A stretch of DNA of 38,547 nucleotides from Blautia sp. (GTDB lineage: Bacteria > Bacillota > Clostridia > Lachnospirales > Lachnospiraceae): NCBI GenBank assembly GCA_023667395.1, contig JAMPAC010000024.1:1-38547 (forward strand). The letters run 5' to 3'. Position numbers and translations under genes: made by a program. The notes under the pieces were generated by a model that worked only from the letters and a program-made list of their open reading frames with translations, did no database searches and was not told the origin of the DNA. Positions 11,545 through 21,793 of this stretch are shown here, piece by piece. Each line of letters begins with the position of its first letter. Within the stretch, counting starts at the first letter, position 1.

Positions 11545-12294
11545 TTATATATCATACCAACGTTTCAGGTCGTTGGAAATGTGATCCAGGTCGGGGTAGA
11601 TGAAACTCTCCGTGATGCCAAATACCCGCAGGCTGTCGATAAAATACTTTTTCCGGTCGCGGGGGATGATGATCTTGTACAGAGTATTCTCATCACAGAT
11701 GTCCTCTAAACGCCGCAGGGAGTTGTGGATGGTAAAACTTGCCTGCTGGTAGTACATACGCAGGTTATTTTCCGTGGAATGACAGGCAAGGATCTTGTCC
11801 CGCAGCGCCGGATTATGGTGGGAATGCTTGAAAGCGGGCAGCAGCATTTCCTGGCTGGTATCCGCGTCGATGGGGTAGATACAGCGGCCGAAGCCCTCCT
11901 GTTCGTTGAAAAGATCCGGCGCCAGCACCCAGATGCCCGCATCCTTGTCGGAGGTATTCTGATAAGTCTCCGTGGCGAAAAAGGAGGCGATCAGGGGCGA
12001 CTGGCTCCAGTCCAGCATCCTGGTGGGCAGGCCATAGTGCTGCATCAGGGACACCCAGGCCGCGTAATTATGCTTTTCCGGCGGGTTTGTCAGGATCTGC
12101 TTGGCGCGGATATAAAAATCGTTGGTGATGTACCGCTCCGTGTCCAGACGCTTCTGGCTGCGCTGGATGGAGGGGATCAGCGCCAGCCCGGCGTCCTCCA
12201 CCCCCCGGTACCACATCCGCAGGCCGTGCTTCTGGTAGAGGCCGTTCACGAACTGGAGCAGTTCATCTATGGTACGGACTTCTTCGATGATCAT
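11545..12294 (-). CDS. FRG domain-containing protein
   Basis: The 249-residue protein has the two hallmark stretches of the FRG domain (PF08867): MWYRGVED near residue 28 and MQHYGLPTRMLDWSQSPLIA near residue 85, followed by SFFATE. No signal peptide or membrane segment is present. FRG proteins are poorly characterised and frequent in accessory regions. It is the first gene after a good minus-strand promoter, 116 nt before the sugar-importer ATPase gene, so it may be co-transcribed with the transporter. It is also the gene that borders the AT-rich defence-like island. Biochemical function is unknown; I see no evidence linking it to sugar transport beyond position. Confidence 0.85.
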   Translation of the reverse strand: MIIEEVRTIDELLQFVNGLYQKHGLRMWYRGVEDAGLALIPSIQRSQKRLDTERYITNDFYIRAKQILTNPPEKHNYAAWVSLMQHYGLPTRMLDWSQSPLIASFFATETYQNTSDKDAGIWVLAPDLFNEQEGFGRCIYPIDADTSQEMLLPAFKHSHHNPALRDKILACHSTENNLRMYYQQASFTIHNSLRRLEDICDENTLYKIIIPRDRKKYFIDSLRVFGITESFIYPDLDHISNDLKRWYDI

Positions 12295-12459: not shown

Positions 12460-12488
12460 TTGTGAAAAAATCTATTATGTGTTATAGT
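12460..12488 (+). promoter_or_regulatory. Promoter of the defence-like island
   Basis: TTGTGA (12460-12465), 17-nt spacer, TATAGT (12483-12488). The predicted RNA start lies near 12495, 35 nt before the first ATG of the island. It diverges from the FRG promoter, with about 70 nt between the two -35 boxes. Confidence 0.75.
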
Positions 12489-12529
12489 AAATAAAGCAAG
12501 GGAAATTGTCAATTGAAGAGGGTTTATGT

Positions 12530-13660
12530 ATGGACAAAGGAAACCAGGAAAGAAAGCGAATAGGTTTGATAGTTTCATATTATTTGTCAAGATGTGACAT
12601 GAAAGCAGTAAGGGCATTAGGTTACAAAAACTTTACAGAGGCTTTTCGGAAAATCGGAGATGTTCTTAATGAAAATCCTAATAATATTAAGAATATGAGA
12701 GATGAGTTTGACCCATATTTCAATAATAGGCGAAAAGGCTGGTACCAAAGAGAACTGAGAGCATCTCGACAGGAAGTATTTGATGAAATGGCTCAATATA
12801 CCGATGTGCAAATGGAACATCTTGTAAAAGAAATATTGTATAGAGCAAGTGGTGGTACTAAAATGGCAAATGTAGAGATACTAAAAGATTTGAAAGCTTT
12901 AATAAGACAGTCAGCTATTCATTATAATCAGGATTTTTCGTGGCAAGATGTTGAATTAACTCAGGAGTTTAAGAATGCATATGAAGAATACTTGGAAAAG
13001 AATAAAGCAAAGATAGAGTACAATGTAGCAACCTCGGTTATAACAACGGCGACATCAAAAAATATATTTGTACCGAATCAATGGTTTGTAATGGCATCAT
13101 ACGCGGTGGGTGTCTATAATGAATTGCATAGATATAAAGCTTATCTTGAAAAAGTGTGTGAACTACAACAGGAAAGATTAGACATATATGCAAAGAAATT
13201 AAGAGATCAGACACATATTATAGATAAAACAGCGTTTATAGCAGCTGGCAATAGAGTTTTACGAATTGAGTTTAGATTTGAAAATAATGTTGAAAAAGCA
13301 ATAAGGCGTTTATGGAGATTTGCAACAGATTATTCATGGTGGTCAGGACAAAAGACGGTAGATAGAGGTGACTTTTATTATTCTGTAGTGCTTAATATGT
13401 TGAACTTGGTTAATGCAAGTCAGGGATATGTTGGAGATATTGTTAATGCATATGGTTCCAGTCCTAAATTATTAACGTTAACGAAAGAACTTGGGAACTT
13501 TACGGCAAATCTTGAAGGCAGTACATATGACATACCGATAGTGGCTGAAGATTTTTATGATTATGAAATCAGCAGCGCAGAACATCCAATTAGCGCTACC
13601 CCGACAAAACATAGAATATCGGTTTCTGTTAATAGCATAAAGAAAATCGGAGGAAATTAA
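12530..13660 (+). CDS. Unknown 376-aa first gene of the defence-like operon
   Basis: The protein has no signal peptide or convincing membrane helix. The N-terminal 90 residues contain LIVSYYLSRCDMKAVRALGY, KNFTEAF, NIKNMRDEFDPYFNN and RRKGWYQREL. I recall comparable stretches at the N-termini of some restriction-associated proteins, perhaps a DNA-recognition module; this is memory, not a search result. The remaining 280 residues are mostly helical and charged, with a probable coiled region near LQQERLDIYAKKLRDQ, and I do not recognise them. ATG 12530 (GAAGAGGG 7 nt upstream) is preferred over an in-frame TTG at 12506. The stop lies 1 nt before the SNF2 gene start. A specificity or sensor subunit is a guess from position. 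Confidence 0.8.
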   Translation: MDKGNQERKRIGLIVSYYLSRCDMKAVRALGYKNFTEAFRKIGDVLNENPNNIKNMRDEFDPYFNNRRKGWYQRELRASRQEVFDEMAQYTDVQMEHLVKEILYRASGGTKMANVEILKDLKALIRQSAIHYNQDFSWQDVELTQEFKNAYEEYLEKNKAKIEYNVATSVITTATSKNIFVPNQWFVMASYAVGVYNELHRYKAYLEKVCELQQERLDIYAKKLRDQTHIIDKTAFIAAGNRVLRIEFRFENNVEKAIRRLWRFATDYSWWSGQKTVDRGDFYYSVVLNMLNLVNASQGYVGDIVNAYGSSPKLLTLTKELGNFTANLEGSTYDIPIVAEDFYDYEISSAEHPISATPTKHRISVSVNSIKKIGGN

Positions 13661-13661
13661 A

Positions 13662-15569
13662 TTGAATGGTCAATGGACAATTAGTGATAATCATATAGCC
13701 TTTATGTGTGATGACCAGCTTTTTCATCCAAATGCTAAGGAAATATATGCAATTTTGGATAGTGAGAGTGATTGCTATGCTGCGGAAATACATTGTAAAA
13801 AGATTAAAGAAGTATTTGCCGATGTTCATTTTTCAAAAATAGGTTCTCCGATTAAGTGTCAGCTGGATACTGAAAACAAAGAAATTATAATGACTCTTTA
13901 TGTTGTGCGCAAAAATAAAAAAATTAGTGTGAATATGCTGGAAGGAGAAATTATAGACCAATGTATTTATAGAAATGAATGGTTCTACATATCTGGTAGT
14001 GTTCGGGAATTAGTAGATATATTTAATAAAGCAGGAGTCAAACAATGTGGAAAGCTTACATCTTCCCAATATGTTGAGATTATAAAAAACCAAGATGTTT
14101 TTGAAAATGGTACTTTGATAAATAATGTCAAAACGAGTCTCTTAAATAAACCCGTGGACATACAGGGAGAATTACCCCAAAAGCTAAATGCAAAACTATA
14201 CGCATATCAAAAGATCGGTTACTTTTGGATGAAGTATATGTTAAATGAAAATAGTGGCTGCATTTTAGGTGATGAAATGGGGCTTGGTAAAACACTTCAA
14301 ATAATTACATTGATGCTGGATTTCAGGAATAAGGGTAATATACCAATGTTAGTTGTTGCACCGGTGTCATTGCTCCAGAACTGGAAAAGGGAATGTGAGA
14401 AATTTGCGCCGAATTTACGGTGTTGCGTGCATCATGGACCCCACCGCTCGGGACGTTACAAAGAAATACAAAAACATGACGTTGTAATAATTTCATATTC
14501 AATCGCAATAAATGACTCATCTGTTTTGAGTATGGTTGATTGGAAACTGGTTGTATTGGATGAGGCGCAGAATATAAAGAATCCGAACAGTGAACGTACT
14601 AAGTTTGTAAAAAAAATACCAAGAAAATGTAGTATTGTTGTTACAGGTACGCCATTTGAAAATCATGTGTCGGACATATGGTCATTGGTTGATTTTGCTT
14701 TTCCTGGTTTGTTCGGAACACTGGCAGAGTATAATAGCGCAATTACAGATGACATAGATGGAGCAGATAAAATTGAATCGATGTTGTCACCTATTATGAT
14801 TCGAAGAATGGTAAAGGATGTTGCGATAGATTTACCAGAAAAAGTAGTTATCCCCCAACCATTGATAATGTCATTGGCGGAGGGGCAAAAATATGAAGAG
14901 TATCGTAAGGACGCGCAAGAAAGTACAGAGAATGGCAATTTGAACTTGGGAGTATTACAAAAACTGCGAATGTTTTGCACACATCCGGCATTATGCGATG
15001 AGAGGGATTGCAAAGACTTTGCTGTAGCGTCTGTTAAATATCAGAGACTATGTGAAATTTTGGAGGAAATATTTTCTATGAATGAAAAAGTAATTATGTT
15101 CACGTCATATCAAAAGATGTTTGATATATTAGACAGAGATATTCCAGAAAGATATAGTGTTCCAGTGTGGAAAATTAATGGTTTAACGCCGGTAGAGGAA
15201 AGACAAAGCATCATAGATATATTTAATGAATATGATGGTAGTGCGCTTCTTACGTTAAATCCAAGAGCAGCAGGAACCGGACTTAACATAACTTCTGCCA
15301 ATCATGTGATTCATTATAATTTGGAATGGAATCCGGCGTTAGAAGATCAGGCATCGGCGAGAGCGTACCGCAGGGGACAGCAAAAAACAGTTTTCATTTA
15401 TCGATTATATTATGAAAGCACAGTAGAACAGGTTGTGAATGAAAGGATAGAAAAAAAGCGCGAGATGGCAATAGCAGCAGTAGTAGGAACTGACGGAAAA
15501 ACTGAAAATCGTGAGGATGTTATTGCGGCACTTAATATATCGCCAATATGGGAGGCAGACAATGATTAA
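13662..15569 (+). CDS. SNF2-family helicase/translocase
   Basis: A 635-residue SWI2/SNF2 superfamily 2 ATPase. Residues 1-170 are an unrecognised N-terminal region. The first RecA domain shows AYQKIGYFWM, motif I GDEMGLGKT (203-211), motif Ia VVAPVSLLQNW, motif II LDEAQ (299-303) and motif III VVTGTPFENHVSDIWSL. The second shows VIMFTSYQKMF, TLNPRAAGTGLNITSANHVI and ARAYRRGQQKTVFIYRL (motifs V and VI). Such enzymes move along double-stranded DNA and are used in several restriction and defence systems. The TTG start at 13662 has GGAGG 8 nt upstream, 1 nt after the previous stop. It overlaps the next gene by 8 nt, suggesting coupled translation. Confidence 0.93.
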   Translation: MNGQWTISDNHIAFMCDDQLFHPNAKEIYAILDSESDCYAAEIHCKKIKEVFADVHFSKIGSPIKCQLDTENKEIIMTLYVVRKNKKISVNMLEGEIIDQCIYRNEWFYISGSVRELVDIFNKAGVKQCGKLTSSQYVEIIKNQDVFENGTLINNVKTSLLNKPVDIQGELPQKLNAKLYAYQKIGYFWMKYMLNENSGCILGDEMGLGKTLQIITLMLDFRNKGNIPMLVVAPVSLLQNWKRECEKFAPNLRCCVHHGPHRSGRYKEIQKHDVVIISYSIAINDSSVLSMVDWKLVVLDEAQNIKNPNSERTKFVKKIPRKCSIVVTGTPFENHVSDIWSLVDFAFPGLFGTLAEYNSAITDDIDGADKIESMLSPIMIRRMVKDVAIDLPEKVVIPQPLIMSLAEGQKYEEYRKDAQESTENGNLNLGVLQKLRMFCTHPALCDERDCKDFAVASVKYQRLCEILEEIFSMNEKVIMFTSYQKMFDILDRDIPERYSVPVWKINGLTPVEERQSIIDIFNEYDGSALLTLNPRAAGTGLNITSANHVIHYNLEWNPALEDQASARAYRRGQQKTVFIYRLYYESTVEQVVNERIEKKREMAIAAVVGTDGKTENREDVIAALNISPIWEADND

Positions 15570-17196
15570 AACAAAGATTGAAATGGCAATGGAAACAGAA
15601 GATAATGATATAAATTGCCCACCGGATCCAGAACGCATAGTAGAAGGACTACGCGATACCGGATATAACTTTAACACAGCTATAGCTGATATCATTGATA
15701 ATTCCATTGCGGCGAATGCTTCAAAAGTAAATATAATTATAAATATGGATCCTGCCGGAGTTATCACAGTATATATTGTGGATGATGGGACAGGAATGGA
15801 TCAAAATGGTTTGATGAATGCTATGACTTATGGGTCGAAAGTCAGAGCAGATCTTGGGAGTTTGGGTAAATTTGGGTTGGGTTTAAAGACTGCTTCAACA
15901 GCTTTTTGTAGATCTTTGTCTGTATTATCAAGAAGTACCGATGGAAATGTGAGAAAAGCTCAATGGGATTTGGATTATGTTGCGTACAAACATGAGTGGA
16001 AACTTAAGTTTTTAGAACCGAGTCGTGACGAGATTGATATTCTGGATGAAACTGCAGAAGATGGAACAGGAACACTTGTTGTTTGGGAAAAGGTTGATCG
16101 TCTTTTGAAAAGTTATCATAATCTCGGGAATGCAAAAAACGCTCTTAAAAGAAAAATCAATGATCTGCAGTTTCATGTTGGAATGGTATATCAGCGTTTC
16201 CTTGATCATAATGACAAACGTGCAGGTAATGTTGAAATTACGATAAATGGAACGACAATCGAAGCGTGGGATCCCTTTGTGGTTTCAGAACCACTGACAG
16301 AAAAATTAGCTGATGAAGAAATTGTCGTAGACATGCCTGATGGGTCTAGTCCTAGTTTTACACTAAAAGCTTATATGATTCCCAATAAGGATAGTTTTTC
16401 TACACCTAAAGCAGCAAAAGATGCTCGTGTAGGGAACGATATGCAGGGCTTTTATGTGTATAGGGAAAATCGCCTGATTCATTATGGGGATTGGTTAGAT
16501 TTGTTTACAAAAGAGCCTCATGGTGCTTTGTTAAGGGTGGAATTTTCTTTTGATCATTTATTGGATGATGCTTTTAATGTTGATATAAAGAAATCCAGAA
16601 TTCTTCCAGCAGAAGAGATACTTGAGTATATTAAAAATTCGTTTATACCGGCACCCAGAAGGGCTGCAGCTGATCGGTATCGCCACGGAACAGCACAGCA
16701 GGTTAGTAAAACGGCAGAAAAGAGAGATGCACATGCAGAGTCTAATCGCAATATAGATGAGAAAGCACGTAGCGTTGAGGGTGCTAAAATTACGGTTACA
16801 AAATCCGATGAGGCTACTATAGAGAATCAGAACGGGACATTTACACATAAAATTACCATTATTTCCAATCCTAAACCCGGACAAGTGCGGGTAATCCCGA
16901 AACCGACTCTGGAATATGGACAATTATGGGAACCGTGTATAGCAGATGGGAAACATGCTGTGCAAATAAACCAGAGCCACCCGTATTATCAGAAAGTGTA
17001 TTCACCAATTTTGGCACAGAATGTTCTGGTAACTGGAATGGATGCTTTGTTATGGGCACTGGCAGAGGCTGAACATAAAACATATAATGAGCAAATCAAA
17101 GAACAGTACGAGGAAATGCGAATAGCTGTTTCAAGAATCCTTAAAACATTAGTTGCAGATTTACCAGATCCAGAAGAGGATGGGGATGATGAATAA
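15562..17196 (+). CDS. MORC/MutL-like GHKL ATPase
   Basis: A 544-residue GHKL-type ATPase. The N-box is IADIIDNSIAANA (residues 41-53), the G1 box VDDGTGM (73-79) and the ATP-lid box GKFGLGLKTAS (102-112). About residues 310-370 contain GFYVYRENRLIHYGDW and VEFSFDHLLDDAFNVDIKKS, the transducer (S5-like) domain arrangement known from MORC and MutL homologues. The C-terminal 130 residues end in an acidic tail. In the family ATP binding closes a dimer clamp, often on DNA. The start ATG 15562 has GGGAGG 6 nt upstream and overlaps the SNF2 stop. Comparative genomics has linked bacterial MORC-like ATPases with restriction-modification loci carrying cytosine methylases, which agrees with these neighbours. 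Confidence 0.9.
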   Translation: MIKTKIEMAMETEDNDINCPPDPERIVEGLRDTGYNFNTAIADIIDNSIAANASKVNIIINMDPAGVITVYIVDDGTGMDQNGLMNAMTYGSKVRADLGSLGKFGLGLKTASTAFCRSLSVLSRSTDGNVRKAQWDLDYVAYKHEWKLKFLEPSRDEIDILDETAEDGTGTLVVWEKVDRLLKSYHNLGNAKNALKRKINDLQFHVGMVYQRFLDHNDKRAGNVEITINGTTIEAWDPFVVSEPLTEKLADEEIVVDMPDGSSPSFTLKAYMIPNKDSFSTPKAAKDARVGNDMQGFYVYRENRLIHYGDWLDLFTKEPHGALLRVEFSFDHLLDDAFNVDIKKSRILPAEEILEYIKNSFIPAPRRAAADRYRHGTAQQVSKTAEKRDAHAESNRNIDEKARSVEGAKITVTKSDEATIENQNGTFTHKITIISNPKPGQVRVIPKPTLEYGQLWEPCIADGKHAVQINQSHPYYQKVYSPILAQNVLVTGMDALLWALAEAEHKTYNEQIKEQYEEMRIAVSRILKTLVADLPDPEEDGDDE

Positions 17197-17198
17197 GT

Positions 17199-18071
17199 AT
17201 GAATGCAGATTGTGTAGATATAAAGAAGAATCTGGAACAAAAATATGATCTTCCTTTTTGGGTAGACTACAGAAAGGAATATAATGATCCGGTATATATA
17301 ATTGCGCCAGAGAATGAACTGGAAGAGTTATTTGAAGTCAGACTCATTTTTAGGCAGAATATTAGATTGATTATTGAAGTACAACCGCAAAAATATGCGG
17401 CGGGTATGCTTAAGGACATACAACATGCCGAAGTGGAAAAACGAGAGGTATTTTTGAAATATCTTGATTTATTTCTAGAGAAAAATTTAAAAGTAGAGGT
17501 TTATATTAATCAGCAGTCCAGAAACATGTACGAGCAGGCCTCGTGGGGAGGGGACTGGAAAACATTCAAGATACGGGCAACTCGGATAATGTTAGGTGAA
17601 ACGGAAGATAATAACATCAAATTTTCGGTCGTTGAATGGGCAGGAATAACAGTTGGAATGATGCTGGCACTTTTAAATATTGAATCATTTAATGAAGAAA
17701 AAAAAGGGTTTCTTGAAGGTGGTGTACAAAAAGCACTTGTAAACAGATATGAAAGAGACCCTGCAAACAGAGAATTGTGTCTGGCATCTAACGGATATTT
17801 GTGCCAAATTTGTGGTTTTGATTTTGAAAAAGTTTATGGCAAACTGGGACAGTACTTTATACATGTTCATCATATTGAAAAGGTATCAACACATGAAAAT
17901 CAGTATTATCTTGATCCAACAACAGATTTGATACCGATATGCCCCAACTGTCATGCCATGCTTCACAGAGTGGATCCGCCTATGAATCCGGAACAGCTGA
18001 GATATCTCATGAAAGAAATAGAGAAAGAACAGGAGATTACTGATGCAAAAATCGGAAGCAATACGGATTAA
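17199..18071 (+). CDS. HNH endonuclease
   Basis: A 290-residue protein with an unrecognised N-terminal region of about 180 residues and a C-terminal HNH nuclease. The nuclease has zinc-type cysteines LCQICGF (Cys202, Cys205), the central YFIHVHHIEKVS with catalytic-type His224/His225, DPTTDLIPICPNCHAMLHR (Cys248, Cys251, His252, His256). It should cut or nick DNA and is the most obvious effector of the island. The start is 2 nt after the MORC-like ATPase stop and the 3' end overlaps the methyltransferase gene by 29 nt. The N-terminal region may serve as a target-recognition or partner-binding domain. Confidence 0.92.
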   Translation: MNADCVDIKKNLEQKYDLPFWVDYRKEYNDPVYIIAPENELEELFEVRLIFRQNIRLIIEVQPQKYAAGMLKDIQHAEVEKREVFLKYLDLFLEKNLKVEVYINQQSRNMYEQASWGGDWKTFKIRATRIMLGETEDNNIKFSVVEWAGITVGMMLALLNIESFNEEKKGFLEGGVQKALVNRYERDPANRELCLASNGYLCQICGFDFEKVYGKLGQYFIHVHHIEKVSTHENQYYLDPTTDLIPICPNCHAMLHRVDPPMNPEQLRYLMKEIEKEQEITDAKIGSNTD

Positions 18072-19197
18072 GAGGGAAGAATTAGGATTAACTATTAAAG
18101 AATTATCTGATGCCATAGGTATGGGAAAAGATGGCGACAAGGAATTTAGATTATGGGAAAAAGGTCTTTCGGTTCCGAGTGATATACAGTATAACAAAAT
18201 TATGTCCTTTGCGACAGTAACACCTTATATGAAGAAAACAGTAAAACCAAAATTTCGTTATATAGATCTGTTTGCCGGCATAGGAGGAATTAGGATACCT
18301 TTTCAGGAACTGGGTGGAGAATGTGTATTTACTTCTGAGTGGGATGCTTTTGCACAGAAAACATACAGGATAAATTTTGGCGGTTATATTTATGGAGATA
18401 TTACACAGGTGAATGAAAAAGATATTCCTGATTTTGATATTCTACTGGGAGGTTTTCCGTGTCAGCCGTTTTCGCAGGCAGGGTTGCATAAGGGATTTTC
18501 TGATACCCGTGGAACACTTTTTTTTGATATTGAAAGAATTATCAAGGAAAAAGGTCCAAAGGCTTTTCTGCTGGAAAATGTTAAGCAGTTGAAAGGGCAT
18601 GATAAGGGCAGAACGTATAAAATTATAGAGGAGCATCTGAAAGAATTAAATTATTCCGTAAATGCAATGGTATTGCGTGCAGGGGATTTTGGGGTTCCTC
18701 AAAACAGAGAACGATTTTATGTAGTAGGATTTGACAGAGAATATTTTGACATTCCGGAAAATTATGAGTTCAAATTTCCGGTTCCGCCTAAAACGCCTAC
18801 CAGATTGGGAGATATATTAGAGGACAATGTTGATCCTAAATATACGATTAGCCAACGATTATACGAGGGACATAAAAGACGGAAAGAAGAACATAAGAAA
18901 AAAGGAAATGGATTTGGATTTTCAATGTTTAATGCAGAGTCTGAATATACCAATACACTTAGTGCCCGTTATTATAAAGATGGTAGTGAAATATTAATAG
19001 ATCAGGGAGAAGATAAATTGCCAAGAAAGCTGACTCCCAGAGAATGTGCTCGTTTGCAAGGATTCCCAGAGGGGTTTATAATTCCTGTTTCTGATACAAG
19101 AGCATACAAGCAATTTGGGAATTCCGTTGCCGTTCCGGTTGTAAGGGCGATAGCTGGAAATATTGTTGCAGAGATGGAAAATTTGCCCAAAAAATGA
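18043..19197 (+). CDS. DNA (cytosine-5-)-methyltransferase with N-terminal HTH
   Basis: A 384-residue C5 methyltransferase. Motif I is DLFAGIGGIR (75-84), the catalytic motif IV GGFPCQPFSQAG has Cys140, motif VI is ENVKQLKGHD, motif VIII QNRERFYVVGF and motif IX/X RECARLQGFPEGF with KQFGNSVAVPVV. Residues 1-50 form an XRE-like helix-turn-helix (IRIKREELGLTIKELSDAIG), as in methylases that repress their own or the nuclease gene. It transfers methyl from S-adenosylmethionine to cytosine in a specific site, presumably marking host DNA. The target site cannot be told from sequence. The start lies within the end of the HNH gene. Confidence 0.95.
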   Translation: MQKSEAIRIKREELGLTIKELSDAIGMGKDGDKEFRLWEKGLSVPSDIQYNKIMSFATVTPYMKKTVKPKFRYIDLFAGIGGIRIPFQELGGECVFTSEWDAFAQKTYRINFGGYIYGDITQVNEKDIPDFDILLGGFPCQPFSQAGLHKGFSDTRGTLFFDIERIIKEKGPKAFLLENVKQLKGHDKGRTYKIIEEHLKELNYSVNAMVLRAGDFGVPQNRERFYVVGFDREYFDIPENYEFKFPVPPKTPTRLGDILEDNVDPKYTISQRLYEGHKRRKEEHKKKGNGFGFSMFNAESEYTNTLSARYYKDGSEILIDQGEDKLPRKLTPRECARLQGFPEGFIIPVSDTRAYKQFGNSVAVPVVRAIAGNIVAEMENLPKK

Positions 19198-19298
19198 ATG
19201 GTTTAATCTTGGAGAATAGAAAGAATGTGAACTTGAAAAGAACTATTTAGAGACAAAGGATGTTGTAGAAGCAAAGTTGTAAAATAGGAGGTGTTGAG

Positions 19299-20309
19299 GT
19301 GACAACAGGTAGTTTTTCAAAAGAAATGCTAAAATATTTTGAAGCAATAGAGGGCGCTTATACTTCATTTACGGAAGTGGAAATTCGTAAAGGAACTTTT
19401 AACGTCAAATCAATAATCAGAAATCTTTTAGTGAATCATTTGGGACGTGATCATATTCCGGAAGCGGGTTCTGGTGATAACCAGTGTATTGAATTCAGAG
19501 TATGTGAAAAGGGCAAAATATATCATTCCGGCACCCTGAGAATTCCATGTAAGTTTTCTAAACCAGATAAAGAAGAAATGACAATTTATTTTAAGCGGGA
19601 ACAGATGGCTCCGTTTCGTAAAGGCGATTATTGGTATATTTATTTTAAAGAGCATGACGACGTACCGGTAATAGGTATATTTTCCAGTACAAAGTGGTGT
19701 GACTTGTTTGATAATGGTAAATTAAATGAAATGGTGGAGCCCGACGAGAAAAATAATGTTAAAATTGCTTATGCGGCCACTGCATCGGAAATGAAAATTG
19801 TTGAAGAGGTTCCGCCAGATGCAAATGCTGTTATTCGCACCAGTCATAATAAAACAAGGAAAAGTGTATCTGTGGATGAAGCAGCTATAATGGCGCATAA
19901 CAGAAAAACAAAGGGCAATATGGGGGAAGAAATTGTAATAGAAATTGAAAAACGCAGGCTTGCGTTTTTACATCGGGAAGATCTTATCCCAAAGATTGCA
20001 TATGTGGCAAAAGTCAAAGATGGGCTGGGATATGATATTATATCAGTGGATGTTGATGAAAAAGGTAATGAGCAGGAAATATATATTGAGGTAAAAACGA
20101 CAGCGGGTAATAAAAATATGCCATTTTATGTTTCACAAAATGAATTGGATGTTTCCAGAAAATACAGGGAGTTATATTATATTTACCGAATATATAATCT
20201 GGCAAGTAATAGTGATTCTGTTAATTATTACCGATTGAAAGGTGCGATTGATGAAAGCTGCAAATTGACACCAGTGGATTACATAGCAATGCCAGGTAAG
20301 AAATCGTAG
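19299..20309 (+). CDS. DUF3883 domain protein, PD-(D/E)XK nuclease-like
   Basis: The 336-residue protein has an N-terminal region of about 195 residues, with the first half containing basic stretches such as LLVNHLGRDHIPEAGSG, and a C-terminal DUF3883 domain. The latter is seen as AHNRKTKGNMGEEIV (199-213), GLGYDIISVDV (242-252) and YIEVKTTAGNKNMPFYVSQN (262-281). The arrangement E, D246, E264-x-K266 is that of PD-(D/E)XK nucleases, so nuclease activity is plausible. GTG 19299 has AGGAGGTG 6 nt upstream. It is separated from the methyltransferase by 101 nt in which I see no promoter or complete gene, so co-transcription is likely but less tight. Confidence 0.88.
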   Translation: MTTGSFSKEMLKYFEAIEGAYTSFTEVEIRKGTFNVKSIIRNLLVNHLGRDHIPEAGSGDNQCIEFRVCEKGKIYHSGTLRIPCKFSKPDKEEMTIYFKREQMAPFRKGDYWYIYFKEHDDVPVIGIFSSTKWCDLFDNGKLNEMVEPDEKNNVKIAYAATASEMKIVEEVPPDANAVIRTSHNKTRKSVSVDEAAIMAHNRKTKGNMGEEIVIEIEKRRLAFLHREDLIPKIAYVAKVKDGLGYDIISVDVDEKGNEQEIYIEVKTTAGNKNMPFYVSQNELDVSRKYRELYYIYRIYNLASNSDSVNYYRLKGAIDESCKLTPVDYIAMPGKKS

Positions 20310-20436
20310 CAGGCCAGACTGATTTGTAATGAAAAGGTGTGAGAAAAATCAGATGGCTGACAGAAGTTGCATTGTGAGTGGACAGAACAGGCAGAGCATT
20401 CTGCACAAGGTAAAAGTTGACTGGTGAGGTGATTCT

Positions 20437-20886
20437 GTGGCAGATGTTTTAACAAAAGAACAGCGACATAAGAATATGAAAAATATCCATGGACAAGATA
20501 CACAGATTGAAATTATTTTGAGAAAAGCTTTATGGAATAGAGGACATCGGTACCGCAAAAATTATAAAGCGCTTCCAGGAAAACCGGATATTGTTCTGAC
20601 AAAATATAAAATTGCAGTTTTTTGCGACAGTGAATTTTTTCATGGGAAGGATTGGGAAGTATTAAAACCGAGATTGGAAAAAGGGAATAACAGTGAATTT
20701 TGGATCAGTAAGATATCCCGCAATAGGGAGAGGGACGACGAGGTGAATAAGAGGCTGCTTTTTGAGGGATGGACAGTGATTCGGTTTTGGGGTGATGAAA
20801 TAATAAAGCATGCGGACGAGTGTGTGAAAGTTGTGGAAGAGACGATTTTTGATATGGCTATAGAAAACGCGGACGTTTTTCCGTGA
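20437..20886 (+). CDS. vsr: Vsr-type very short patch repair endonuclease
   Basis: A 149-residue Vsr-like protein. MADVLTKEQRHKNMKNIHGQ is the typical start (MADxxTxxQRSxxMxxIxxK), followed by LPGKPDIVL with the catalytic Asp51, IAVFCDSEFFHG with His69, and FWISKISRNRERDDEVNKRL. The family cuts next to T:G mismatches formed when 5-methylcytosine deaminates, so it fits the methyltransferase three genes upstream. It lacks the cysteine cluster that usually follows FWHG, so it belongs to a zinc-less variant and could instead have been recruited as a restriction nuclease. GTG start, with GGTGAGGTG upstream. The 127 nt before it holds only a 24-codon frame at 20353. Confidence 0.88.
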   Translation: MADVLTKEQRHKNMKNIHGQDTQIEIILRKALWNRGHRYRKNYKALPGKPDIVLTKYKIAVFCDSEFFHGKDWEVLKPRLEKGNNSEFWISKISRNRERDDEVNKRLLFEGWTVIRFWGDEIIKHADECVKVVEETIFDMAIENADVFP

Positions 20887-20927: not shown

Positions 20928-21004
20928 CTCAAAGGTGAGAATCCTGTGCCGGGAATGTCGCAGGATAAAACAGCAAGAAAGAACGTTCCCAGATGGAGGA
21001 GATT

Positions 21005-21793
21005 ATGAAAAAGAAACTGGCATTGGCGCTGGTGCTGGCCATGGGACTGACCATGACCGGCTGTGGAAAAAGCGCGGCATCCGGAGACGCGGCGAACATG
21101 GTGTACGCGGTGGAAGCAGGTTCCGCAGGCGAGGAGGTTGCGCAGGAAAAAGGTTATTCCATCAATTCCGTGGCATCCCAGGCGGACGCTTTGATGGAAG
21201 TGGCATCCGGGACTTCCGATGCGGCGATCATTGATCTGCTGATGGCGGGAGCAATGATCGGCGAGGGTACCAGCTATCCCAATCTGACGCACACGGACGA
21301 ATTGACCACGGAGGAGTACGGTATAGGCTGCCGTAAGGGATCCGATCTGGCGGAGTATATCAACGCGGTGCTGGCGGACAACTACGCGGACGGTTCCATG
21401 CAGAAGGCTGCCGAGACCTACGGCGTGCAGGACGCGCTGGTAGAGCCTGCGGGCGGTTCCTATGATGCGGCATCGGACGGGGATGTGGCGTATATCCAAG
21501 GGAAAGGAACCCTGATTGTGGGTATCACGGAGTTTGAACCCATGGATTACAGGGATGATTCCGGTCAGTGGATCGGTTTTGATGCGGATATGGCCCGCGT
21601 GGTGGCGGACAAGCTTGGCGTGGAGGCGCAGTTTGTTGTCATTGACTGGGACAACAAGATCATGGAACTTGATTCCAAAAATATTGATGTGGTATGGAAC
21701 GGCATGACGCTGACTTCTGAGGTAACGGAATCCATGGAGTGTACCAGTGCGTACTGCAAGAATGCGCAGGTGATCGTGGTTCCTGTGAAGTGA
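21005..21793 (+). CDS. Amino-acid-binding lipoprotein with circularly permuted SBP family 3 domain
   Basis: A 262-residue lipoprotein (signal ending TMTGC, Cys20). Residues 33-146 correspond to the usual second half of a family 3 binding protein: YAVEAGSAGEEVA (normally the VGVQxGSTGE strand), DALMEVASGTSDAAIID and EEYGIGCRKGSDLAEYINAV. Residues 165-260 correspond to the usual first half: GKGTLIVGITEFEPMDYRD, WIGFDADMARVVADKLGV and IDVVWNGMTLTSEVTESMEC, ending QVIVVPVK where a normal protein would cross to the second lobe. The order is thus C-terminal part, linker, N-terminal part, a circular permutation rather than a truncation, because all pieces are present once. It should still bind a polar amino acid for the downstream permease. 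ATG 21005 has GGAGGA upstream. Confidence 0.88.
   Translation: MKKKLALALVLAMGLTMTGCGKSAASGDAANMVYAVEAGSAGEEVAQEKGYSINSVASQADALMEVASGTSDAAIIDLLMAGAMIGEGTSYPNLTHTDELTTEEYGIGCRKGSDLAEYINAVLADNYADGSMQKAAETYGVQDALVEPAGGSYDAASDGDVAYIQGKGTLIVGITEFEPMDYRDDSGQWIGFDADMARVVADKLGVEAQFVVIDWDNKIMELDSKNIDVVWNGMTLTSEVTESMECTSAYCKNAQVIVVPVK

Follow-up and report, generated by a model that had tools for sequence, protein, structure and literature searches.

Which function is served by seven neighbouring genes of Blautia sp. that bring together an SNF2-family ATPase, a MORC-type ATPase, predicted nucleases and a cytosine methylase? The genes, here called A to G, lie on a DNA stretch of 38,547 nucleotides (contig JAMPAC010000024.1, assembly GCA_023667395.1; hereafter the window), which is part of a 4.43 Mb draft genome. 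A first reading of the letters alone (the sequence-only reading) had taken them for a restriction-type operon. Our data indicate that genes A to F, about 8 kb in size, probably constitute a horizontally acquired, ATP-dependent 5-methylcytosine (m5C) restriction-modification (R-M) island, with the roles of the parts as proposed below. A system of this kind was already predicted in 2008 (PMC2292703), and the gene combination itself is no surprise to a specialist. What is new is an uncharacterised first gene, A, together with a DUF3883 nuclease, F, at the site-reading positions of relatives.

Gene content and chromosomal address

The open reading frame (ORF) listing gives seven ORFs, all on the + strand within 12530-20886. 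A Pfam scan covered nine window proteins (A to G and the products of the two flanking genes; Table 1). Seven same-strand neighbours with the families named by the sequence-only reading were thus confirmed, including its unknown first protein, as gene A has no Pfam family above threshold. The genes had also been described as mostly overlapping or nearly touching, which holds for four of the six junctions (A-B 1, B-C -8, C-D 2 and D-E -29 bases), while F and G are slightly detached (E-F 101 and F-G 127 bases). The starts of A and C were set from alignment with relatives; judged by the aligned N-termini, the best start of A is 12530 and the locus does not begin at 12460 as had been assumed. The GC content is 0.343-0.388 in A to F and 0.384 in G, compared to 0.549 and 0.558 for the genes on either side.

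Table 1. Features of the island and its boundaries in the window
Feature	Position	Strand	Evidence or description
Gene A, uncharacterised protein, about 376 amino acids	12530..13660	+	N-terminal domain of ~100 residues (A_N) and C-terminal part
Gene B, SNF2-family ATPase (DNA translocase by family)	13662..15569	+	Pfam SNF2-rel_dom 4e-57, Helicase_C 2.5e-19
Gene C, MORC-type GHKL+S5 ATPase	15562..17196	+	Pfam HATPase_c_3 1.1e-28
Gene D, HNH endonuclease, four conserved Cys	17199..18071	+	Pfam HNH 3.5e-07
Gene E, m5C DNA methylase with N-terminal helix-turn-helix (HTH)-like region	18043..19197	+	Pfam DNA_methylase 6.1e-108
Relic, 3' end of another vsr	19223..19297	+	aligns with L002 13963-14037 (end of its vsr), 48/75 bases identical
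Gene F, DUF3883/NOV_C protein, predicted PD-(D/E)XK-like nuclease with uncharacterised N-terminal part	19299..20309	+	Pfam NOV_C 1.2e-18
Gene G, Vsr endonuclease	20437..20886	+	Pfam Vsr 6.1e-30
FRG-domain protein, left boundary, resident flank	11545..12294	-	Pfam FRG 1.3e-22; syntenic in G790, G827
Extracellular solute-binding protein, right boundary, resident flank	20993..21793	+	Pfam SBP_bac_3 5.6e-26; syntenic in G790, G827

At the sequence level, ATPase or nuclease motifs are retained in B, C, D and F. Across nine aligned proteins, the GLGKT sequence of B (residues 207-211) is invariant, as are H224, H225, C202, C205, C248 and C251 of D. C carries the S5-domain motif of MORC proteins (GhXhhpXXRhl) as GFYVYRENRLI, numbered from residue 296 in the full-length protein and from residue 290 in the fragment whose start is 15580. 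In F, residues D246, E264 and K266 are invariant in 4/4 sequences, and D...E(V/L)K is retained in all eight aligned NOV_C domains, NOV_C being the domain found in proteins that carry the DUF3883 annotation.

The slot that the island occupies is the strongest contextual argument for an R-M system. Among 41 genomes of the genus (that of the window included), 9 have the FRG gene and 12 the binding-protein gene; the slot was compared in G790 and G827, the two other genomes with both flanking genes close together on one contig. Between the same flanking genes, G790 carries a methylase, an Eco47II-type endonuclease and a Vsr, and G827 two methylases, an AAA protein with MTaX1 and an LlaJI endonuclease. 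One address holds different R-M systems in three species of the genus. Since complete R-M systems fill this slot in two congeners, we read the window island as restriction, in line with the restriction-type function first suggested for the locus.

On the left, DNA homology between the window and G790 reaches to about 12397; it sets in again at 20425, which places G in the homologous flank. G is 80% identical to the Vsr of G790 and 64-65% identical to those of two seven-gene loci, L003 and L017 (see below). The relic of another vsr, in which the peptide ECELEKNYLET is readable, lies between E and F. From this relic and the flank homology, G was probably inherited from the resident slot and is not a part of the island. 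The island is thus made up of A to F.

In eight ordinary host genes of the flank (between 21879 and 37988), GGNCC is strongly avoided, with 6 sites observed versus 29.4 expected and 0/500 synonymous shuffles as low. The specificity of Eco47II is GGWCC. This avoidance, together with the Eco47II-type enzyme in the congener's slot, suggests that the genome has long been exposed to GGNCC-type restriction. An FRG gene borders the exchange slot in all three genomes; the one in the window matches the PADLOC candidate PDC-S15 (2e-46).

Related loci and the parts that differ

All seven families occur together in three further loci: L002 of an Agathobacter metagenome-assembled genome, L003 of Butyrivibrio and L017 of genome G177, which belongs to the window's family but to another genus. 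The joint occurrence elsewhere that the sequence-only reading had proposed as a check was thus found, and it indicates that the set is more than a chance grouping. The order in these loci is A-B-C-D-E-Vsr-F, with the last two reversed in the window. ParB-like and RepA_N genes lie upstream of the Agathobacter copy (L002 4136-6024), which may for this reason be located on a plasmid or integrative element.

More distant counterparts were found on plasmids. C has matches in 35 of the 72,556 plasmid records, and in 12 of these the match spans 80% or more of the protein. Eight of the 12 were read; the 35 also include a Hymenobacter record, which was read with regard to A. SNF2 and Dcm are present in all eight loci, HNH and an EcoRII-N protein in seven (not in L049), and Vsr in seven (six by our own comparison, L046 by record annotation). 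A type II restriction endonuclease is annotated in L043, L044, L045 and L050, with shorter pieces in L046 and L049. EcoRII-C was confirmed by Pfam in L043, and alignment with this enzyme gave 43% for L044 and 92% for L045. The EcoRII-N proteins match the EcoRII of known structure, and plant B3 domains less strongly, in keeping with a role as DNA reader. In L044, SNF2, EcoRII-N, MORC, HNH, the EcoRII-like enzyme, Vsr and Dcm are all encoded on one strand; in four of the eight loci (L043, L045, L046 and L050), the EcoRII-like enzyme, Vsr and Dcm are opposite in strand to the other four. L047 and L048 have the core with Dcm and Vsr, and an EcoRII enzyme is not annotated in the stretch read, the plasmid gene tables being incomplete. 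A and F were found in 0/8. The EcoRII-linked loci (L043-L046 and L050, from Agrobacterium, Marinobacter, Rhizobium and Sphingomonas) therefore share with the window SNF2, a MORC protein with 47-49% identity to C along its length, HNH, Dcm and Vsr, but unlike the window they carry an EcoRII-N protein of B3 fold together with an EcoRII-type enzyme, and A and F are absent. Gene content and strand layouts thus point to a stable core of SNF2, MORC, HNH, reader, Dcm and Vsr, in which the window's A and F take the places of the EcoRII-type parts.

Phylogenetic analysis of the MORC proteins (27 rows) places the 13 MORCs of Mza-like loci in one group (99/99). C clusters with the three other seven-gene rows and four EcoRII-type rows (94/96), and support for uniting the 11 SNF2-type rows is weak (46/56). 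In a pattern search, the apparent N-box starts with D in the SNF2-type rows and in 12/13 Mza-like rows, and with E in the outgroup rows L028 and L029. C has 13 relatives in viral contigs and 3 in annotated phages, the latter at 60-63% cover. None of the 13 has an SNF2, HNH, A or F match within the available stretch, and pattern scans of viral contigs yielded no relatives of A or F.

The A_N domain is also present in DUF3883 proteins and in one HNH protein, and it is joined to a nuclease domain in 5/5 proteins found outside the seven-gene loci. One of these A_N-DUF3883 proteins is encoded in the Hymenobacter Mza-like locus. On that plasmid, the row at L034 2117-5496 also includes an annotated sensor histidine kinase and a second uncharacterised gene alongside the Mza-like genes, and it resembles the two-component-like elements of PMC8011034. 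The A_N-HNH fusion gene (L060 6550-7314, - strand) has no R-M genes beside it, so that a location of A_N near m5C methylases, which the reader model predicts for most cases, is not absolute. Relatives of the C-terminal part of A were found only in the four seven-gene loci, and the plasmid records hold no match at E up to 1. A fragment of the Vibrio vulnificus plasmid pFORC54 (32 residues, E 9e-5) was considered as such a relative; it was missed by the A profile at E 0.01 and rejected. The N-terminus of F likewise gave zero matches in plasmid records at E up to 1. Its identification as an EcoRII-N/B3 domain was rejected, with E values of 0.15 and 0.19 in whole-F profile comparisons and 67/250 and 51/250 background ORFs scoring as high as the N-terminal piece alone. 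Compared with the sequences of solved structures, the profiles of A, C and F gave no meaningful match.

The target of methylase E can be predicted from its recognition core, which is identical to E. coli K-12 Dcm at 23/39 positions and to the EcoRII-linked L043 methylase at 26/38. Dcm marks CCWGG, SsoII CCNGG and HhaI GCGC. HhaI is the best solved-structure match of E, but aligns poorly over the recognition core. On these grounds we predict a CCNGG-type target (CCWGG or CCNGG). The cytosine methylase motif pattern of E is intact, and its domain layout (HTH-like start, methylase domain at 71-375 of 384 residues) matches that of M.SsoII, which has an N-terminal regulatory region (1-71) and a methylase domain (72-379) (PMC3978073). 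The match of the E N-terminus to HTH_3 is below threshold (17.3 bits, cutoff 23). With its Dcm-like recognition core, E resembles type II R-M of the EcoRII/SsoII kind, and F is a candidate cognate endonuclease by position and motif. With the four islands pooled, CCSGG (7 versus 24.4 expected) and CCWGG (19 versus 39.0) are the lowest classes under a Markov expectation, with GGWCC close behind; the islands are homologous and their site counts not independent. After a codon-use control, avoidance of CCNGG was dropped as target evidence, as it neither supports nor refutes the target. In the Mza-like control L018, CCWGG itself is extreme (0/500 shuffles as low).

Placement among known systems

The closest described relatives are the MORC/SWI2-SNF2 restriction operons, the second operon type of Iyer, Abhiman and Aravind 2008 (PMC2292703). 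A MORC protein with the S5 motif, an SNF2-family helicase, HNH, a cytosine methylase and Vsr share one neighbourhood there as in the window, where the SNF2 gene also adjoins MORC (B and C overlap by 8 bases). In those operons, EcoRII-N/VP1-RAV and EcoRII genes are found where the window has A and DUF3883, and an A-like gene is not mentioned in the accessible text. The VP1/RAV (EcoRII-N, B3) protein is an optional feature, and 0/9 window proteins match EcoRII-N at E up to 1. The authors discuss a parallel with MutL repair and Vsr, and eukaryotic MORCs are proposed as descendants of such bacterial proteins (PMC2292703).

By their defining genes, the locus does not appear to be Mza, DISARM or Zorya. 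A related MORC ATPase and an m5C methylase are common to Mza systems and the window; Vsr is a shared feature in some cases, and an A_N-DUF3883 protein occurs in Hymenobacter. MzaB models are the closest defence-model family of C (3.9e-59), yet the score of 200 bits stays far below the equivalog cutoff of 850. AIPR and DUF4420 proteins define Mza and are present in the Mza-like contrast locus L018; neither is among the ORFs of 12.3-20.9 kb. Among the best 25 matches per protein, DrmA, DrmB and DrmC of DISARM did not appear (the sole DISARM matches being DrmD with B and DrmMII with E), and neither did ZorA or ZorB of Zorya, although B matches ZorD over the C-terminal helicase part and D matches ZorE weakly. 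The sequence-only reading was thus right that AIPR and DrmA/B are missing within these scopes. Comparison with the catalogues separates the locus from these three systems, but its core of motor, clamp, nuclease and methylase is the one that comparative genomics described in 2008 (PMC2292703).

Other systems offer looser analogies. In VcSduA, for which phage protection was tested, a GHKL ATPase is thought to control a PD-(D/E)xK nuclease (PMC12137116); this likeness is to a single protein of the Shedu kind, and SNF2, HNH and methylase are not named in the accessible text. CglI and NgoAVII have a methylase, a site-specific nuclease and a helicase-like ATPase in common with the window (PMC5737866, PMC4267653), and the nuclease-ATPase complexes of CglI communicate along DNA before cutting (PMC5737866). 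Their motor is of the DEAD family, and MORC or HNH is not named in the parts available, so that the relation is mechanistic analogy and not membership. MORC and DUF3883 are likewise not in the accessible text of PMC12839542.

Proposed mechanism and alternatives

In the R-M island that we favour, E would mark host CCNGG-type sites as self. Unmarked sites would be detected by A, which stands where proteobacterial relatives have the B3-fold EcoRII-N protein. The MORC protein C may, gated by ATP, clamp or loop the DNA, the SNF2 motor B may track along DNA and the HNH protein D would cut. F would be a second nuclease at EcoRII's place in relatives; its partner may be A or, if F works as a type II enzyme, E. 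Vsr would repair T:G mismatches arising from 5-methylcytosine deamination. The sequence-only reading had SNF2 and the MORC protein scanning unmethylated DNA, with HNH and/or DUF3883 cutting it; this interpretation has partial support, in that ATPase and nuclease motifs are kept while the roles are inferred.

Several points weigh against the proposed island. The search of the open-access literature found no experiment on a bacterial MORC-SNF2 restriction operon. A gave no signal against EcoRII-N and EcoRII, and is a candidate reader by gene replacement and fusions only; the similarity of the F N-terminus to EcoRII is not significant. Avoidance of CCNGG is not clearly significant, as 25, 187, 194 and 30 of 500 synonymous-codon shuffles were as low in the four islands. 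Finally, L047 has an uncharacterised 721-residue gene after EcoRII-N, and a further nuclease is possible there given the incomplete gene tables.

The genes might instead belong to two co-travelling systems, a plain type II R-M set (E, F and Vsr) on the one hand and, on the other, a separately triggered SNF2-MORC-HNH-A module that works independently. The split strand layout of four plasmid loci fits this idea, to which we give appreciable weight while holding it for clearly the less likely explanation: L044 has all those genes on one strand, L047 and L048 combine the quartet with Dcm and Vsr where the incomplete gene tables list no EcoRII enzyme, and the A_N-NOV_C fusions elsewhere tie A to F. 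Vsr, Dcm and a MutL-related GHKL ATPase side by side also recall the MutL/Vsr parallel (PMC2292703), and the locus could be a mismatch- or damage-repair island (VSP-like, with Dcm, Vsr, MutL-like ATPase and helicase) and not restriction. It seems improbable that this is so, as Pfam finds two further nucleases in the locus, the same slot is exchanged with complete R-M systems and the vsr relic suggests that Vsr is replaceable. A divergent Mza system is more improbable still, since the defining genes were looked for and are missing.

Being compact, with clear active sites and a target that can be predicted, the island would make the looping hypothesis of 2008 testable. A is a candidate recognition module that the island shares with Mza-like loci. 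For the genus, the slot comparison documents how a single chromosomal address is filled by different R-M systems in three species.
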